Assembly: GCF_005222785.1 (NCBI RefSeq)
Contig: NZ_STGH01000001.1
Location: 744,001-808,000, forward strand
DNA from: Rhodobacter sp. SY28-1
GTDB lineage: Bacteria; Pseudomonadota; Alphaproteobacteria; Rhodobacterales; Rhodobacteraceae
Length of the DNA stretch: 64,000 nucleotides
Reading direction: 5' to 3'
Made by a program: the position numbers and the translations under genes. A model generated the notes under the pieces. It was not told where the DNA came from, ran no database searches, and saw nothing but the letters and a program-made list of their open reading frames with translations. This document shows, in pieces, positions 8,176-46,431 of the stretch (its first letter is position 1; each line of letters opens with the position of its first letter).

Positions 8176-8192
8176 CTGTCCACCGTGGACAG
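8176..8192. repeat. 17-bp palindrome, copy 1 of the TGTCCAC family
   Basis: CTGTCCAC-c-GTGGACAG is a perfect inverted repeat with 8-bp arms. Near-identical palindromes occur just after hemH (27510-27526) and just after argG (46415-46431). This copy lies immediately beyond the infB terminator. Confidence 0.6.
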
Positions 8193-26407: not shown

Positions 26408-27508
26408 ATGCTGGATGCCCGGAGCACTGCCGTGACGGGGACCGACGTCACCCCGGGAGAGGGCCGCCTTTCCCATGCGCCCGCCGACCATCCCCCCGTC
26501 CGTCGCGCCAGGATCGGGGTGCTTCTGGCCAACCTCGGGACCCCGGACGCCTACGACTACTGGTCGATGCGGCGCTATCTGAACGAATTCCTGTCGGACA
26601 AGCGGGTCGTCGACATCCCGGACTGGAAGTGGCAGCCGCTACTTCAACTCATCATTCTGTCGAGGCGGCCCTTCACCTCGGGGGCGAACTACAAGCTGAT
26701 CTGGAACGAGGAGCTGAACGAAAGTCCGCTGCTGACGATCACCAAGGCCCAGACCGCGGCGATTGCCAAGATGATGGCCGAGAAGCACGGGGCGGAAGTG
26801 ATGGTCGACTTCTGCATGCGCTACGGCAACCCCTCGACCGAGGCGAAGGTCCGGGCGATGGTGGATGCAGGCTGCGAGAAGGTGCTGTTCTTCCCGCTTT
26901 ACCCCCACTACGCCGGGGCGACCTCGGCCACGGCGAACGACCAGTTCTTCCGCGCGCTGATGAAGGAGAAGCGGCAGCCGGCGGTGCGGACCGTGGCGGA
27001 GTATTTCGACCACCCCCTCTACATCGACGCGCTGGCGAAGTCGGTCGAGACGGCCTATGCGGGGCTCGATCATCGGCCCGACGTGCTGGTCGCCAGCTAC
27101 CACGGGATGCCAAAACGCTACCTGATGGAGGGCGACCCCTATCACTGCCAGTGTGCCAAGACCTCGCGTCTGCTGCGGGAGCGGCTGGGGTGGGAGAAGG
27201 GGGCGATCGACACGACCTTCCAGTCGGTCTTCGGGCGTGAGGAGTGGCTGAAACCCTACACGGTCGAGCATGTGGCGGAGCTGGCGAAGGCGGGGAAAAA
27301 GCGGATCGCGGTGATGGCCCCGGCCTTCAGTGCCGACTGCATCGAGACGCTGGAGGAGATCAACGGGGAGATCCGGGAGGCTTTCGAGCATGCGGGGGGC
27401 GAGGAGTTCACCTATATTCCCTGTCTGAACGACGAAGCGGCCCATATCGAGGCGCTGGTGGCAGTGATCGAGGAGAACCTGGGCGGCTGGCTGCCCCGGA
27501 AGGGGTGA
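26408..27508 (+). CDS. hemH: Ferrochelatase
   Basis: HemH inserts ferrous iron into protoporphyrin IX, the last step of haem synthesis. The 366-residue product has IGVLLANLGTPDAYDYWSMR, the catalytic histidine in ASYHGMPKRYL, FPLYPHYAGATSAT, and the conserved glutamate in SADCIETLEEI. A polar 35-residue N-terminal extension precedes the core. Cysteines in DPYHCQCAKTS are typical of alphaproteobacterial enzymes. A 17-bp palindrome starts two bases past the stop. Confidence 0.96.
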   Translation: MLDARSTAVTGTDVTPGEGRLSHAPADHPPVRRARIGVLLANLGTPDAYDYWSMRRYLNEFLSDKRVVDIPDWKWQPLLQLIILSRRPFTSGANYKLIWNEELNESPLLTITKAQTAAIAKMMAEKHGAEVMVDFCMRYGNPSTEAKVRAMVDAGCEKVLFFPLYPHYAGATSATANDQFFRALMKEKRQPAVRTVAEYFDHPLYIDALAKSVETAYAGLDHRPDVLVASYHGMPKRYLMEGDPYHCQCAKTSRLLRERLGWEKGAIDTTFQSVFGREEWLKPYTVEHVAELAKAGKKRIAVMAPAFSADCIETLEEINGEIREAFEHAGGEEFTYIPCLNDEAAHIEALVAVIEENLGGWLPRKG

Positions 27509-27509
27509 T

Positions 27510-27526
27510 GTGTCCACGGTGGACAC
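27510..27526. repeat. 17-bp palindrome, copy 2 of the TGTCCAC family
   Basis: GTGTCCAC-g-GTGGACAC is a perfect inverted repeat starting two bases after the hemH stop codon. No T-run follows. Confidence 0.6.
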
Positions 27527-27622
27527 TTCCCGTTTTCATTAGCATTTTCTGATACTTGCAGATTTTCGTTAGGGTGGTCTTAACCTTTTCGGGACGGCCC
27601 GAGAAAATAATCCCGTGGCTGG

Positions 27623-27650
27623 TGTCGAAATCGCCGACCCTCGCGGGTCA
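27623..27650 (+). promoter_or_regulatory. Candidate ECF42-type promoter
   Basis: TGTCGA (27623-27628) is followed after about 15 bases by CGGGTCA, 44-50 bases before the first gene of the ECF module. A TGTCGA -35 element is, from memory, the motif reported for ECF42 group promoters. The -10 match is loose. Confidence 0.35.
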
Positions 27651-27693
27651 CTCCTATGCCCGGCATTGGACCGGCCCAACAAAGGAGTTGACC

Positions 27694-28140
27694 ATGACCG
27701 CGTTCCCCCTTCCCCAAACCACGAAACGGCCGCTGTGGCTGACCCTTCCGGCGGGCGCTGCCCTTGCCTGGAATGTGTTCGGCCTCTGGCAGTTCGGCAA
27801 GTTCCTGAACCAGACGCCCACCAGTCTGATGGCCGAAGGCATGACCGAGGCGCAGGCCGCAGCCTATACCTCGCTGCCCGGCTGGATGACGCTGGTCTTT
27901 GCGGTGGGCGTGCTCGGCGGCACGCTGGGGACAGCCCTGCTGTTGATGCAACGGCGCAGTGCGGTGCCGGTGCTGGTCGTGTCGCTGGTGGGCTATGTGG
28001 CGCTTTTCGCGGGCGACTGGGCGCATGGGCTGTTCGACATCCTGCCGATGCAGCTGGCGATCCTGTCCACGGTTGTCGCCATCGCTGCGGCGAGTCTTGG
28101 GCTGGCGCTTTTCGCCTTTAAACGTGACATTCTTCGCTGA
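27694..28140 (+). CDS. Small integral membrane protein of the ECF module
   Basis: The 148-residue protein has about four hydrophobic segments (PLWLTLPAGAALAWNVFGLW, WMTLVFAVGVLGGTLGTALL, VPVLVVSLVGYVALFAGDWA, QLAILSTVVAIAAASLGLAL) and little soluble part. It starts at 27694 behind a clear AAAGGAG site. No enzyme motif was seen. It is the first gene of a run with a DGPF/YciI protein and an ECF sigma factor, 18 bases apart from the next. It may be a regulated output of the sigma factor or a sensor; neither is proven. Confidence 0.75.
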   Translation: MTAFPLPQTTKRPLWLTLPAGAALAWNVFGLWQFGKFLNQTPTSLMAEGMTEAQAAAYTSLPGWMTLVFAVGVLGGTLGTALLLMQRRSAVPVLVVSLVGYVALFAGDWAHGLFDILPMQLAILSTVVAIAAASLGLALFAFKRDILR

Positions 28141-28158
28141 GCTCCGGGGAGAGAACCG

Positions 28159-28515
28159 ATGCAATACATGCTGATGCTGAACGAGACCGCTGCCGAATTC
28201 GCGCGCCGGACCGATCCCGAGGAGACGCAGGCCTATTGGGGCGGCTGGAACGCCTTTATCGGCGCGATGGCACAGGCCGGGGTGATCGTGAAGGGCGACG
28301 GTCTGCAGGGGCCGATGCTGGCGACGACGGTGCGCGTGGTGGATGGCAAGCGGCATGTGCAGGACGGCCCCTTCGCCGACACCAAGGAGCAGTTGGGCGG
28401 CTATTTCGTGATCGAGGTGCCAGACCTGGACGCGGCGCTGGACTGGGCGGCGCAGGCCCCTTGTGCCCTGGCCGGGTCGGTCGAAGTGCGGCCGGTCCTG
28501 CCGCCGATGAGCTGA
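28159..28515 (+). CDS. DGPF/YciI-family protein
   Basis: The 118-residue protein is a dimeric ferredoxin-like alpha-beta fold of the YCII/DGPF family. It shows MQYMLMLNETAAEF at the start, the signature QDGPFADTKEQLGGYFVIEV, and a C-terminal EVRPVLPPM. DGPF proteins are the usual genomic companions and presumed targets of ECF42 sigma factors. A GGGGAGAG site precedes the start, and the stop overlaps the sigma-factor ATG (TGATG). Confidence 0.9.
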   Translation: MQYMLMLNETAAEFARRTDPEETQAYWGGWNAFIGAMAQAGVIVKGDGLQGPMLATTVRVVDGKRHVQDGPFADTKEQLGGYFVIEVPDLDAALDWAAQAPCALAGSVEVRPVLPPMS

Positions 28516-29708
28516 TGGGCGCGCCGTCGGCCAGGCATGTCGCCGAGCGGACGGCGCGGCTGTCCTTTGGGCGGCTGCTGGCGATTCTGGCGGCCGGGAC
28601 GCACGATCTGCCGCTGGCCGAGGAGGCGCTGGCCGAAGCCTTTGCCCGGGCGCTGGAGGTCTGGCCCCGGCAAGGCGTGCCCGGACACCCGGAGGGCTGG
28701 CTTCTGAGCGTGGCGCGGAATCGGGTGTCGAACCTGCATCGGCATGACCGGACCCGTGCGGCGGCGACCGAGGAGTTGATCCTTCGGGCCGAGGAGCGGG
28801 CCGACCTTGCCGTGCAGGCCGATGAGCGGCTGGCGCTGATGTTCGTCTGCGCCCATCCGGCAATTGATCCAGCGGCGCGAGCCCCGCTGATGTTGCAGAC
28901 GGTGCTGGGGCTGGATGCGGCGCGGATCGCGGCGGCGTTTCTGGTGCCGCCCTCGACGATGGGCCAGCGGCTGGTGCGCGCCAAGGCCCGGATCAAGGAG
29001 TTGCGGCTGCGGTTTGCCCTGCCCGATGCGGACGATCTGCCGGACCGGCTGGCCGATGTGCTGGAGGCGATCTACGGTGCGTTCGGGGCGGATTGGGACG
29101 GCTCGGCGGGGCTGGGGCTGCCCGAGGAGGCGATCCATCTGGCGCGGGTGTTGATGGGGCTGATGCCCCAGGCGCCGGAGGTGAAGGGCCTTCTGGCACT
29201 GATGCTGTATGTCCATGCGCGGCGGGCGGCACGGGACGGGCAGGTCTTCGTGCCCTTGTCCGAGCAGGATGCGGCTCTGTGGGACCGCGATCAGGTGATC
29301 GAGGCGGAGGGGCTTCTAACGCAGGCCGCGCGCGCCGGGCAGTTCGGGCGGTTTCAGTGTGAGGCGGCGATCCAGTCGGTCCATGCGCAGCGGGCGATCA
29401 CGGGGCAGCTGAACCTTGCGGCGCTCGACACTCTGCATGAGCTTCTGCTGCGGTTTCACCCCACCGTGGGCGGGAAGGTGGCGCATGCGGCGGTCCGGCG
29501 TCTGCAGGGGGATGCGGCAGGGGCGCTGGCGATGCTGGAGGCCTTGCCCGATGCGGCGCGAACCTACCAGCCGGCGCTGGTGCTGCGGGCCCATTGCCTG
29601 CGTGATCTGGGTGCTGCCGAGTTTTCCGGGGCGGCGGAAGCGGCCCTTGCTGTCACGACGGACGCCCGCCTGAAATCCCATCTGCGGCGGGAGTTCGGGT
29701 TGGCTTAA
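28515..29708 (+). CDS. ECF42-type RNA polymerase sigma factor with long C-terminal extension
   Basis: The 397-residue protein has an ECF sigma-2 region (residues about 15-80, RLLAILAAGTHDLPLAEEAL, GHPEGWLLSVARNRVSNLHR), a sigma-4 helix-turn-helix (about 110-165, TVLGLDAARIAAAF, STMGQRLVRAKARIK), and some 220 further helical residues resembling TPR repeats. That architecture, together with a coupled DGPF gene, defines the ECF42 group, which has no classical anti-sigma factor. The extension is thought to control activity itself. The start at 28515 overlaps the DGPF stop; a longer frame upstream is only the shadow of that gene. Confidence 0.9.
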   Translation: MGAPSARHVAERTARLSFGRLLAILAAGTHDLPLAEEALAEAFARALEVWPRQGVPGHPEGWLLSVARNRVSNLHRHDRTRAAATEELILRAEERADLAVQADERLALMFVCAHPAIDPAARAPLMLQTVLGLDAARIAAAFLVPPSTMGQRLVRAKARIKELRLRFALPDADDLPDRLADVLEAIYGAFGADWDGSAGLGLPEEAIHLARVLMGLMPQAPEVKGLLALMLYVHARRAARDGQVFVPLSEQDAALWDRDQVIEAEGLLTQAARAGQFGRFQCEAAIQSVHAQRAITGQLNLAALDTLHELLLRFHPTVGGKVAHAAVRRLQGDAAGALAMLEALPDAARTYQPALVLRAHCLRDLGAAEFSGAAEAALAVTTDARLKSHLRREFGLA

Positions 29709-29762
29709 CCTTTGGCAAGTCGCCGTGCTAGCCTGCCCGAAGGCACGGGACGAGGGGATATG

Positions 29763-31493
29763 ATGGCGATTTCAGCCCTGCGGGGAAAGGCTCTGATCGC
29801 GGGTCAGGCGAGTGGCGCGGTGCTGCATGCGGACACGGGCCTAAGCTTCATGGGCGGGGTCGATGCGGCGACGGGGCGGATCATCGACGTGCATCATCCT
29901 TTGTGCGGACAATCGGTCGCCGGGAAGGTCCTGTGCCTCCCCAGCGGGCGGGGGTCGTGTTCGGGCAGTCTGGTGATCTTCGAGTTGCTGATGAACGGCC
30001 ATGCGCCCTCGGCTTTGGTGTTCCGGCACAAGGAGACGATCCTGACTTTGGGGGTGCTGATCGCCGCAGAGCTGTTCCAGCGCGGGACACCGGTGCTTCA
30101 ACTGGACGAGGCGGGGTTTGCGGCGCTGGCGGGGGCGCGGTTTGCGCGGATCGAGGGGGACAGCATTCGGGCTACAGAGGCACTGACCGACCTGCCGACA
30201 AGCTTTGTGTTGCCGCAGCCCGATCCGGCCGAATTCAGGTTGAGCGACCTCGACCGCCGGTTCCTTGCGGGGGAGTTCGGCGAGGCGGCAAGGATCGCGA
30301 TGCGCATCGTGTTGCAGACGGCGCGGATCGAGGGGGCGACGGAGTTGGTTGATGTCGAGATGGCGCATCTGGACGGGGTTTTTTACCAGGGACCAGCGGG
30401 GCTGACGTTTGCGCGGAAGCTGTGCGATCTGGGTGCGCGCGTCAGGGTGCCGACGACGATGAACGCGGTCTGCGTCGACCGGCGGCAGTGGCGGGCGCAG
30501 GGGGTGGACAAGGTGCTGGGCGAGGCGACGGATGCGCTGGCCGAGGCCTATGTCGAGATGGGTGCGAAGCCCACCTATACCTGTGCGCCCTATCTGCTGG
30601 AGGGGGCGCCGAGGCCTGGGCAGAACATCGCCTGGGGCGAGTCGAACGCGGTGGTCTTTGCGAATTCGGTCCTGGGCGCGCGGACACTGAAATACCCGGA
30701 TTATCTGGATATCCTGGTCGCGCTTGCGGGCCGGGCGCCGGCGGCGGATTGTTATCTGGACGCCGGGCGGAAGGCCTCGATCCGGCTGGACTTGCCCCCC
30801 TTGGGCGATCTGGACGACCTGTTCTTTCCGTTGCTGGGCTATCACCTGGGCAAGATCGCAACGAACGACATCCCGCTGATCTGCGGGCTTGAAGGGCGGG
30901 CGGTGAGCCACGACGATCTGAAGGCCTTTGGGGCGGCCTTTGCCACGACCTCGGCCGCGCCGATGTTCCATATCCTTGGGGTGACGCCGGAAGCCACGAC
31001 CGCGGAGGCTGTGCTGGCGGTGGGTGTCCGGGTGGTGCAGGTCTCGCTGGAGGACCTGGCCGAGACCTGGGCAGAGCTGAACATCGCGCCCGAGCCGCAT
31101 GTGGACATGGTGAGCCTCGGCAATCCGCATTTCTCGCTGACCGAGATGGCGGCGCTGGCCCGGTTGTGTGACGGGCGGCGGAAGGCGGAGGGGGTCCGGC
31201 TGATCGTCACCTGCGGTCGGGATGTCCACGCGAAGGCCCAGGCTGCGGGTCTGATCGACAGGGTCCGGGCCTTTGGTGGCGAGCTGCTGAACGACACCTG
31301 CTGGTGCTTCATCGCCGAGCCAGTGGTGCCGAAGTCGGTGCGAAACATCGCCACCAACTCTGGCAAGTATGCGCATTACGGGCCACCTGCGACAGGCAAG
31401 GGCTTTCACTTTGCCAGCCTCGCCGTCTGCGTCGAAGCTGCCTGCAGCGGCCGGATCGACAGGACACCGCCTGGTTGGCTGCGCGGGGGTTGA
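29763..31493 (+). CDS. Aconitase X, fused small and large domains (probable cis-3-hydroxy-L-proline dehydratase type)
   Basis: The 576-residue protein fuses an N-terminal DUF126 swivelling domain (residues 1-135, DVHHPLCGQSVAGKVLCLPS, GRGSCSGS with the presumed catalytic serine) to the DUF521 large domain. The latter carries conserved cysteines for an iron-sulfur cluster and substrate binding (AVCVDRRQW, YTCAPYL, LICGLEGRAVSH, VTCGRDVH, NDTCWC, ATNSGKYAHYGP). Characterised bacterial members dehydrate cis-3-hydroxy-L-proline; others act in mevalonate metabolism in archaea. The start at 29763 is preferred over 29760 for ribosome-site spacing (GAGGGG). There are no proline-catabolism neighbours. 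Confidence 0.85.
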   Translation: MAISALRGKALIAGQASGAVLHADTGLSFMGGVDAATGRIIDVHHPLCGQSVAGKVLCLPSGRGSCSGSLVIFELLMNGHAPSALVFRHKETILTLGVLIAAELFQRGTPVLQLDEAGFAALAGARFARIEGDSIRATEALTDLPTSFVLPQPDPAEFRLSDLDRRFLAGEFGEAARIAMRIVLQTARIEGATELVDVEMAHLDGVFYQGPAGLTFARKLCDLGARVRVPTTMNAVCVDRRQWRAQGVDKVLGEATDALAEAYVEMGAKPTYTCAPYLLEGAPRPGQNIAWGESNAVVFANSVLGARTLKYPDYLDILVALAGRAPAADCYLDAGRKASIRLDLPPLGDLDDLFFPLLGYHLGKIATNDIPLICGLEGRAVSHDDLKAFGAAFATTSAAPMFHILGVTPEATTAEAVLAVGVRVVQVSLEDLAETWAELNIAPEPHVDMVSLGNPHFSLTEMAALARLCDGRRKAEGVRLIVTCGRDVHAKAQAAGLIDRVRAFGGELLNDTCWCFIAEPVVPKSVRNIATNSGKYAHYGPPATGKGFHFASLAVCVEAACSGRIDRTPPGWLRGG

Positions 31494-46414: not shown

Positions 46415-46431
46415 CTGTCCACGGTGGACGG
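46415..46431. repeat. 17-bp palindrome, copy 3 of the TGTCCAC family
   Basis: CTGTCCAC-g-GTGGACGG, one mismatch between arms, begins at the base after the argG stop codon. Confidence 0.55.

Follow-up and report, generated by a model that had tools for sequence, protein, structure and literature searches.

The window, a 64,000-nucleotide stretch of the genome of Rhodobacter sp. SY28-1, contains three genes in one forward-strand run, ordered by our reading of its open reading frames as MEM, YCII and a sigma factor gene. MEM (27694–28140) encodes a four-helix, probably membrane protein of 148 amino acids without a Pfam family; YCII (28159–28515) a YCII/DGPF protein of 118 amino acids (PF03795, E 5e-18); and the third gene (28515–29708) an ECF42-type sigma factor of 397 amino acids with a DUF6596 C-terminal extension. 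The last two genes are coupled by TGATG, the TGA at 28513–28515 overlapping the ATG at 28515–28517. The gene before MEM (26408–27508) we take to be hemH, and a scan of 27300–29900 returned zero sigma-70-like promoters and zero terminators. The palindrome TGTCCAC[C/G]GTGGACA occurs at 27511–27525 and again at 8177–8191 and 46416–46430 of the window; the whole genome holds it at 83 places with at most one mismatch (reversed control, 0), and all eight places inspected were intergenic according to the gene caller.

The assignment of the sigma factor to ECF42 is supported by its domains, its extension and the adjoining YCII gene. The DUF6596 match is strong (Pfam, residues 178–272, E 7.8e-23), and this domain we regard as a marker of ECF42. 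The Pfam matches to region 2 (21.2 bits against a gathering cut-off of 24) and to Sigma70_r4_2 (24.4 against 25.7) fall slightly below their thresholds, both of which an ECF42 paralog in the same genome passes. Residue 73 is an asparagine (N73, codon 28731–28733, forward strand) and lies in the helix reading the –10 element. C-terminal of the region 4 match there are 237 residues; in the structure model the extension is all-helical, and its top Foldseek matches were mostly TPR proteins, weak throughout (best E 0.01). A sequence-only reading of this DNA had proposed a sigma/DGPF pair coupled by TGATG in the manner of ECF42, which the domains, the overlap and the neighbouring gene confirmed, and a long helical extension of the sigma factor, with which the DUF6596 match, the model and the length of the tail agree. 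A figure given in PMC11119718 places 97% of DUF6596 domains in sigma70 proteins.

The AlphaFold model of MEM (mean pLDDT 92.8) has helices at residues 14–38, 63–84, 90–110 and 118–143 and a longest soluble stretch of ~24 residues. From their make-up the helices probably span the membrane. MEM had no Pfam match near the cut-off, including none to a cytoplasmic sigma-binding domain, and no NCBIfam match, and Foldseek returned nothing for the model at E 0.001 or better. The matches listed by VIA-align were mostly helical bundles (best Z 11.4), a likeness that may reflect common arrangement alone.

MEM-first loci were gathered from genus and family searches and from named genomes, the latter contributing 15 loci, four of them identical to the loci of G021, G023, G010 and G049. 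That a four-helix protein opens the operon, as had been read from the letters, is upheld by the model and by the 19 distinct loci so obtained, with the membrane location judged from the helices. The MEM–YCII–sigma run is intact in 15 of the 19. A stop codon interrupts the sigma gene in G005, the contig of L102 stops at MEM, and G065 (L086:3894–4706) has a MEM–YCII pair and a TGTCA promoter with no adjoining sigma gene; a search of the latter genome found two sigmas with D73 and none with N73. At L113:3477–4421, the first ~50–57 residues of MEM are joined in frame to the sigma factor from about residue 144 with the promoter kept, either by deletion or by misassembly of the metagenome-assembled genome. 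Visual inspection placed the 19 loci in 10 or more different neighbourhoods, and promoter and cassette thus seem to move together. Fuscovulum ytuae carries the cassette on a 169-kb plasmid typed as non-mobilizable, and the out-of-family matches of the named-genome search include records labelled Rhizobium albus, Nitratireductor and Methylobrevis.

Upstream of MEM, on the same strand, we found a –35 element TGTCGA (27623–27628) separated by 17 nt from a –10 element GGTCA (27646–27650), with an A/T-rich stretch at 27604–27611 that may act as an UP element. The TGTCGA hexamer alone was dropped as promoter evidence, being common in the genome: the window has 80 copies and its shuffles 31. The two boxes together, TGTCGA-N17-[TG]GTCA, stand 70–91 nt upstream of the used MEM start in 18 of 19 distinct loci (with N18 in G005), whereas TGTCGA-N16..18-[TG]GTCA turned up in 4 of 9500 shuffled 250-nt upstream sequences, and it is this comparison that bears out the proposed placement of TGTCGA at promoter distance from MEM. 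The –35, shared with other ECF42 operons, is kept in all loci except L105, where AGTCGA is one base off; the –10 is TGTCA at every MEM-first locus bar that of the window. Across 18 aligned loci, A/T information peaks 10–18 nt upstream of the –35. By eye from the S. meliloti RpoE10 promoter as given in part of PMC6180224, transcription would be expected to start near 27656–27658. An inverted repeat with paired changes lies just past the –10 in 12 MEM loci (e.g., L103:3456–3500 and L107:3453–3500); its consensus fold scores –8.75, whereas shuffles average –0.14 and none of 500 is as low, for loci picked after viewing the sequences. The consensus fold of all 19 leaders had no structure, and the window leader folds no better than its shuffles.

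The genome scan for TGTCGA-type promoters that the sequence-only reading had proposed was run on eight MEM-carrying genomes with the strict pattern TGTCGAAA-N15-[TG]GTCA. Six of them, including G010, which is 59% complete, had a single match, always before the MEM operon, and the reversed control had none. In G023 the TT after the –35 rules out a strict match; G005, whose own promoter has N18, had two, both within genes. A looser pattern gave 24 matches in the window's genome against 12 in the control; for three of them a called gene start is no more than 130 nt away, and of these three one belongs to the MEM operon and two lie elsewhere. The regulon is thus likely to be one operon, as far as motif matches can tell. 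With 19 loci, one sigma clade and the single strict match in six of eight genomes, the suggested autoregulated promoter holds up as a candidate, and it looks as if the MEM operon is switched on by its own sigma factor. The –10 box, its contrast with sister ECF42 promoters and the sigma residue that goes with it are additions to the sequence-only reading.

The promoters of sister operons share the first box and differ in the second. Besides the MEM loci, 25 ECF42 loci were inspected, most of them from the genus and one entered twice (L012 and L117); TGTCGA-N17-CGTC precedes an operon gene in 16, and further loci add more. Throughout the ECF42 operons the –35 is common and the –10 varies, being CGTC or CGAC in most non-MEM operons and GCTC or GCAC in the nearest relatives of the MEM clade. 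The usual partner gene is YCII and not MEM: the sister operons of the mostly-genus set open with YCII or MAPEG (both genes tested matched PF01124), and CGTC boxes also occur in a group within the family whose operons start with a polyketide-cyclase-like gene (PF10604 in L137 and L152). In a tree of 63 sigma factors, the 15 linked to MEM form one clade (support 100/95; 100% of 200 bootstrap trees). The second ECF42-type gene of the window's genome (L098, G000:C3:301168), 42% identical to the window sigma, resembles it in being a DUF6596 sigma behind YCII genes with the TGTCGAAAT –35, but it has two YCII genes, no MEM, a CGTCC –10 and D73. Four genomes (G000, G021, G023 and G135) combine an intact MEM-type sigma with a further ECF42 whose promoter is assigned; in each, the two types have distinct –10 boxes, and the ECF42 paralogs of G023 have three different ones.

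The –10 class follows residue 73 of the linked sigma factor. In our initial sample, 53 of 63 sigma rows had an assigned –10, where the filter kept only CGTC or TGTC if a locus offered several (this affects L140). N73 occurred with TG or GG in 15 of 15 cases and D73 with CG in 31 of 31, while the seven GC boxes, all among the nine assigned by eye, went with H, A, Q or R (7/7); the ten rows without a –10 had D (9) or K (1). A later set of 58 loci came from class and phylum searches and had its –10 assigned by rule, and, four loci having no sigma call above 330 amino acids, 32 of the other 54 received one. There D73 occurred with CG in 25 of 25 rows (13 CGTC, 10 CGAC and 2 CGTT), H73 with GC in six of six, three of them near-identical (L193–L195), and Q with CC in the one case; the –10 of L229, the same gene as L146, was set by hand, and L186 and L187 (D, CGTC) are outside the count. 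The 22 later rows without a –10 had D (21) or Q (1).

Ranked by information on the –10 class, residue 73 came first among 171 positions over all 85 rows (0.98 of the maximum), with residue 72 second (0.88), and it is also top in the 32 later rows alone (1.00). In the first set, residues 159 and 165 distinguish MEM-clade sigmas from the CG class no less sharply than residue 73, but in the later rows their link to the –10 is lost. Aligning W62 with W81 of Mycobacterium tuberculosis SigH equates residues 73 and 72 with SigH N92 and I91; in the crystal structure, as described in PMC6411747, both make contact with the –11 base pair. On the tree, the –10 label changes about three times, against 26 in shuffles, so that few independent changes appear to underlie the link. 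N with TG is confined to the MEM clade, and L188 combines D and CG within the GC/H group, at a weakly supported position.

What the comparison of loci shows is an operon whose flanks differ, a promoter of two boxes and a single clade of MEM-linked sigmas. We consider it likely, on these sequence patterns, that they form a self-contained ECF42 unit whose sigma factor would read the promoter at 27623–27650 and transcribe MEM, YCII and its own gene. N73 would accept TGTC or GGTC and the D73 paralogs would take CG-type boxes, and ECF42 paralogs within one genome would therefore avoid cross-firing; one or two bases of difference from the –10 boxes of sister sigma factors may suffice to keep them apart. 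More tentatively, MEM may be an output in an interchangeable first slot, filled elsewhere by MAPEG, polyketide-cyclase-like or second YCII genes, and YCII and the TPR-like extension may control sigma activity. Extended to the whole group, the idea would be that ECF42 paralogs share one –35 and gain insulation from coupled changes in sigma residue 73 and in the two leading bases of the –10 (D with CG, N with TG, H with GC), with residue 72 contributing. In every subclade the driven first gene would be interchangeable, the MEM cassette being one such orthogonal unit. Toward this wider scheme we lean slightly, the 171-position ranking having tipped what had been an even balance. The findings define an ECF42 subgroup with a candidate output protein and a regulon of apparently one operon. 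They also yield a one-residue, two-base prediction of how cross-talk is avoided between sister sigmas in a cell.

ECF42 sigma factors are common, and in the part of the literature familiar to us we know of no anti-sigma genes or identified interaction partner for them. MEM could nevertheless be a membrane anti-sigma factor or signal receptor that holds the sigma factor through the TPR-like extension: it is co-encoded in the operon and tied to one sigma clade, and PMC8999054 and PMC9023288, in the sections that treat it, suppose that ECF42 activity is governed by the extension together with a protein bound there, YCII being suspected. We find this quite improbable. The model has no soluble stretch beyond ~24 residues, although a new kind of binding is conceivable, the usual partner in ECF42 operons is YCII rather than MEM, and G065 keeps MEM without a linked sigma. 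MEM also exists apart from ECF42. In a class-level search it matched in 18 of 385 genomes, and a family survey gave 44 genomes with a match; in the 30 loci viewed within ~1.5 kb, YCII lay near MEM in 3 of 29 besides the window's own, accompanied by the sigma gene in two of those three. In G410, G175 and G190 (L087, L088 and L089), from three genera, a lone MEM without YCII or sigma stands divergent to a TetR gene (PF00440), with a palindrome-like sequence, noted by eye, between them; a search of these genomes, of which G190 is 89% complete, found no full-length ECF42. Because MEM stands beside two unrelated switches, we infer that it is more likely an output gene than an anti-sigma factor.

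Observations against the proposed self-reading by the sigma factor include the TGTCA promoter that G065 retains without an N73 sigma, the departure of the window's GGTCA from the TGTCA of its clade, and the S. meliloti ECF42 that leaves its own operon unraised in the results we drew on from PMC6180224. The first and the last would suit another regulator or sigma factor reading the motif, with the MEM operon not autoregulated. This we hold highly improbable: the motif agrees with ECF42 promoters in spacing and sequence, the scan of 27300–29900 gave no sigma-70-like promoter, and the –10 changes in step with what the linked sigma has at positions 73 and 72. A different objection takes the –10 and residue 73 differences for clade markers without a causal link, the paralogs then cross-talking: the independent changes are few, and residues 159, 165 and 166 mark the MEM clade too. 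Yet over all rows the top two of the 171 positions are residues 73 and 72, in that order, 159 and 165 fail in the later ones, the two leading residues fall where SigH contacts the –10 in the structure described in PMC6411747, and L188, despite its weak support, has D and CG together among GC/H relatives. The ranking turned this objection from doubtful to unlikely in our estimate.

Title and abstract searches, with partial coverage of the ECF42 literature, found no publication on the MEM operon or this –10 pattern, and the literature search found no paper treating ECF42 together with MAPEG. Among known systems, as far as the sources consulted describe them, Streptomyces venezuelae Sven_0747 and its relatives, Pseudomonas putida ECF-10 and S. 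meliloti RpoE10 share with the window sigma the ECF core and, as members of the same ECF42 group, the long C-terminal extension and a YCII gene alongside. Set against the ECF42 promoter (–35 TGTCG, –10 CGTC), the window has the –35, but its –10 is GGTCA and that of its clade TGTCA, and its operon is unlike theirs in opening with MEM. The S. meliloti promoters read TGTCGG-N17-CGTC (the spacing is our count by eye on the table of PMC6180224), and overexpression of RpoE10, in the results of the same paper that we used, raised other operons and not its own, unlike what is proposed for the sigma factor of the MEM operon. The pairing of residue and box follows a principle already described, that few sigma residues set the bases of ECF promoters, a rule that the relevant passages of PMC11588781 and PMC10880074 credit to Todor et al. 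(2020), whose amino-acid/nucleotide pairs are consistent with crystal structures.
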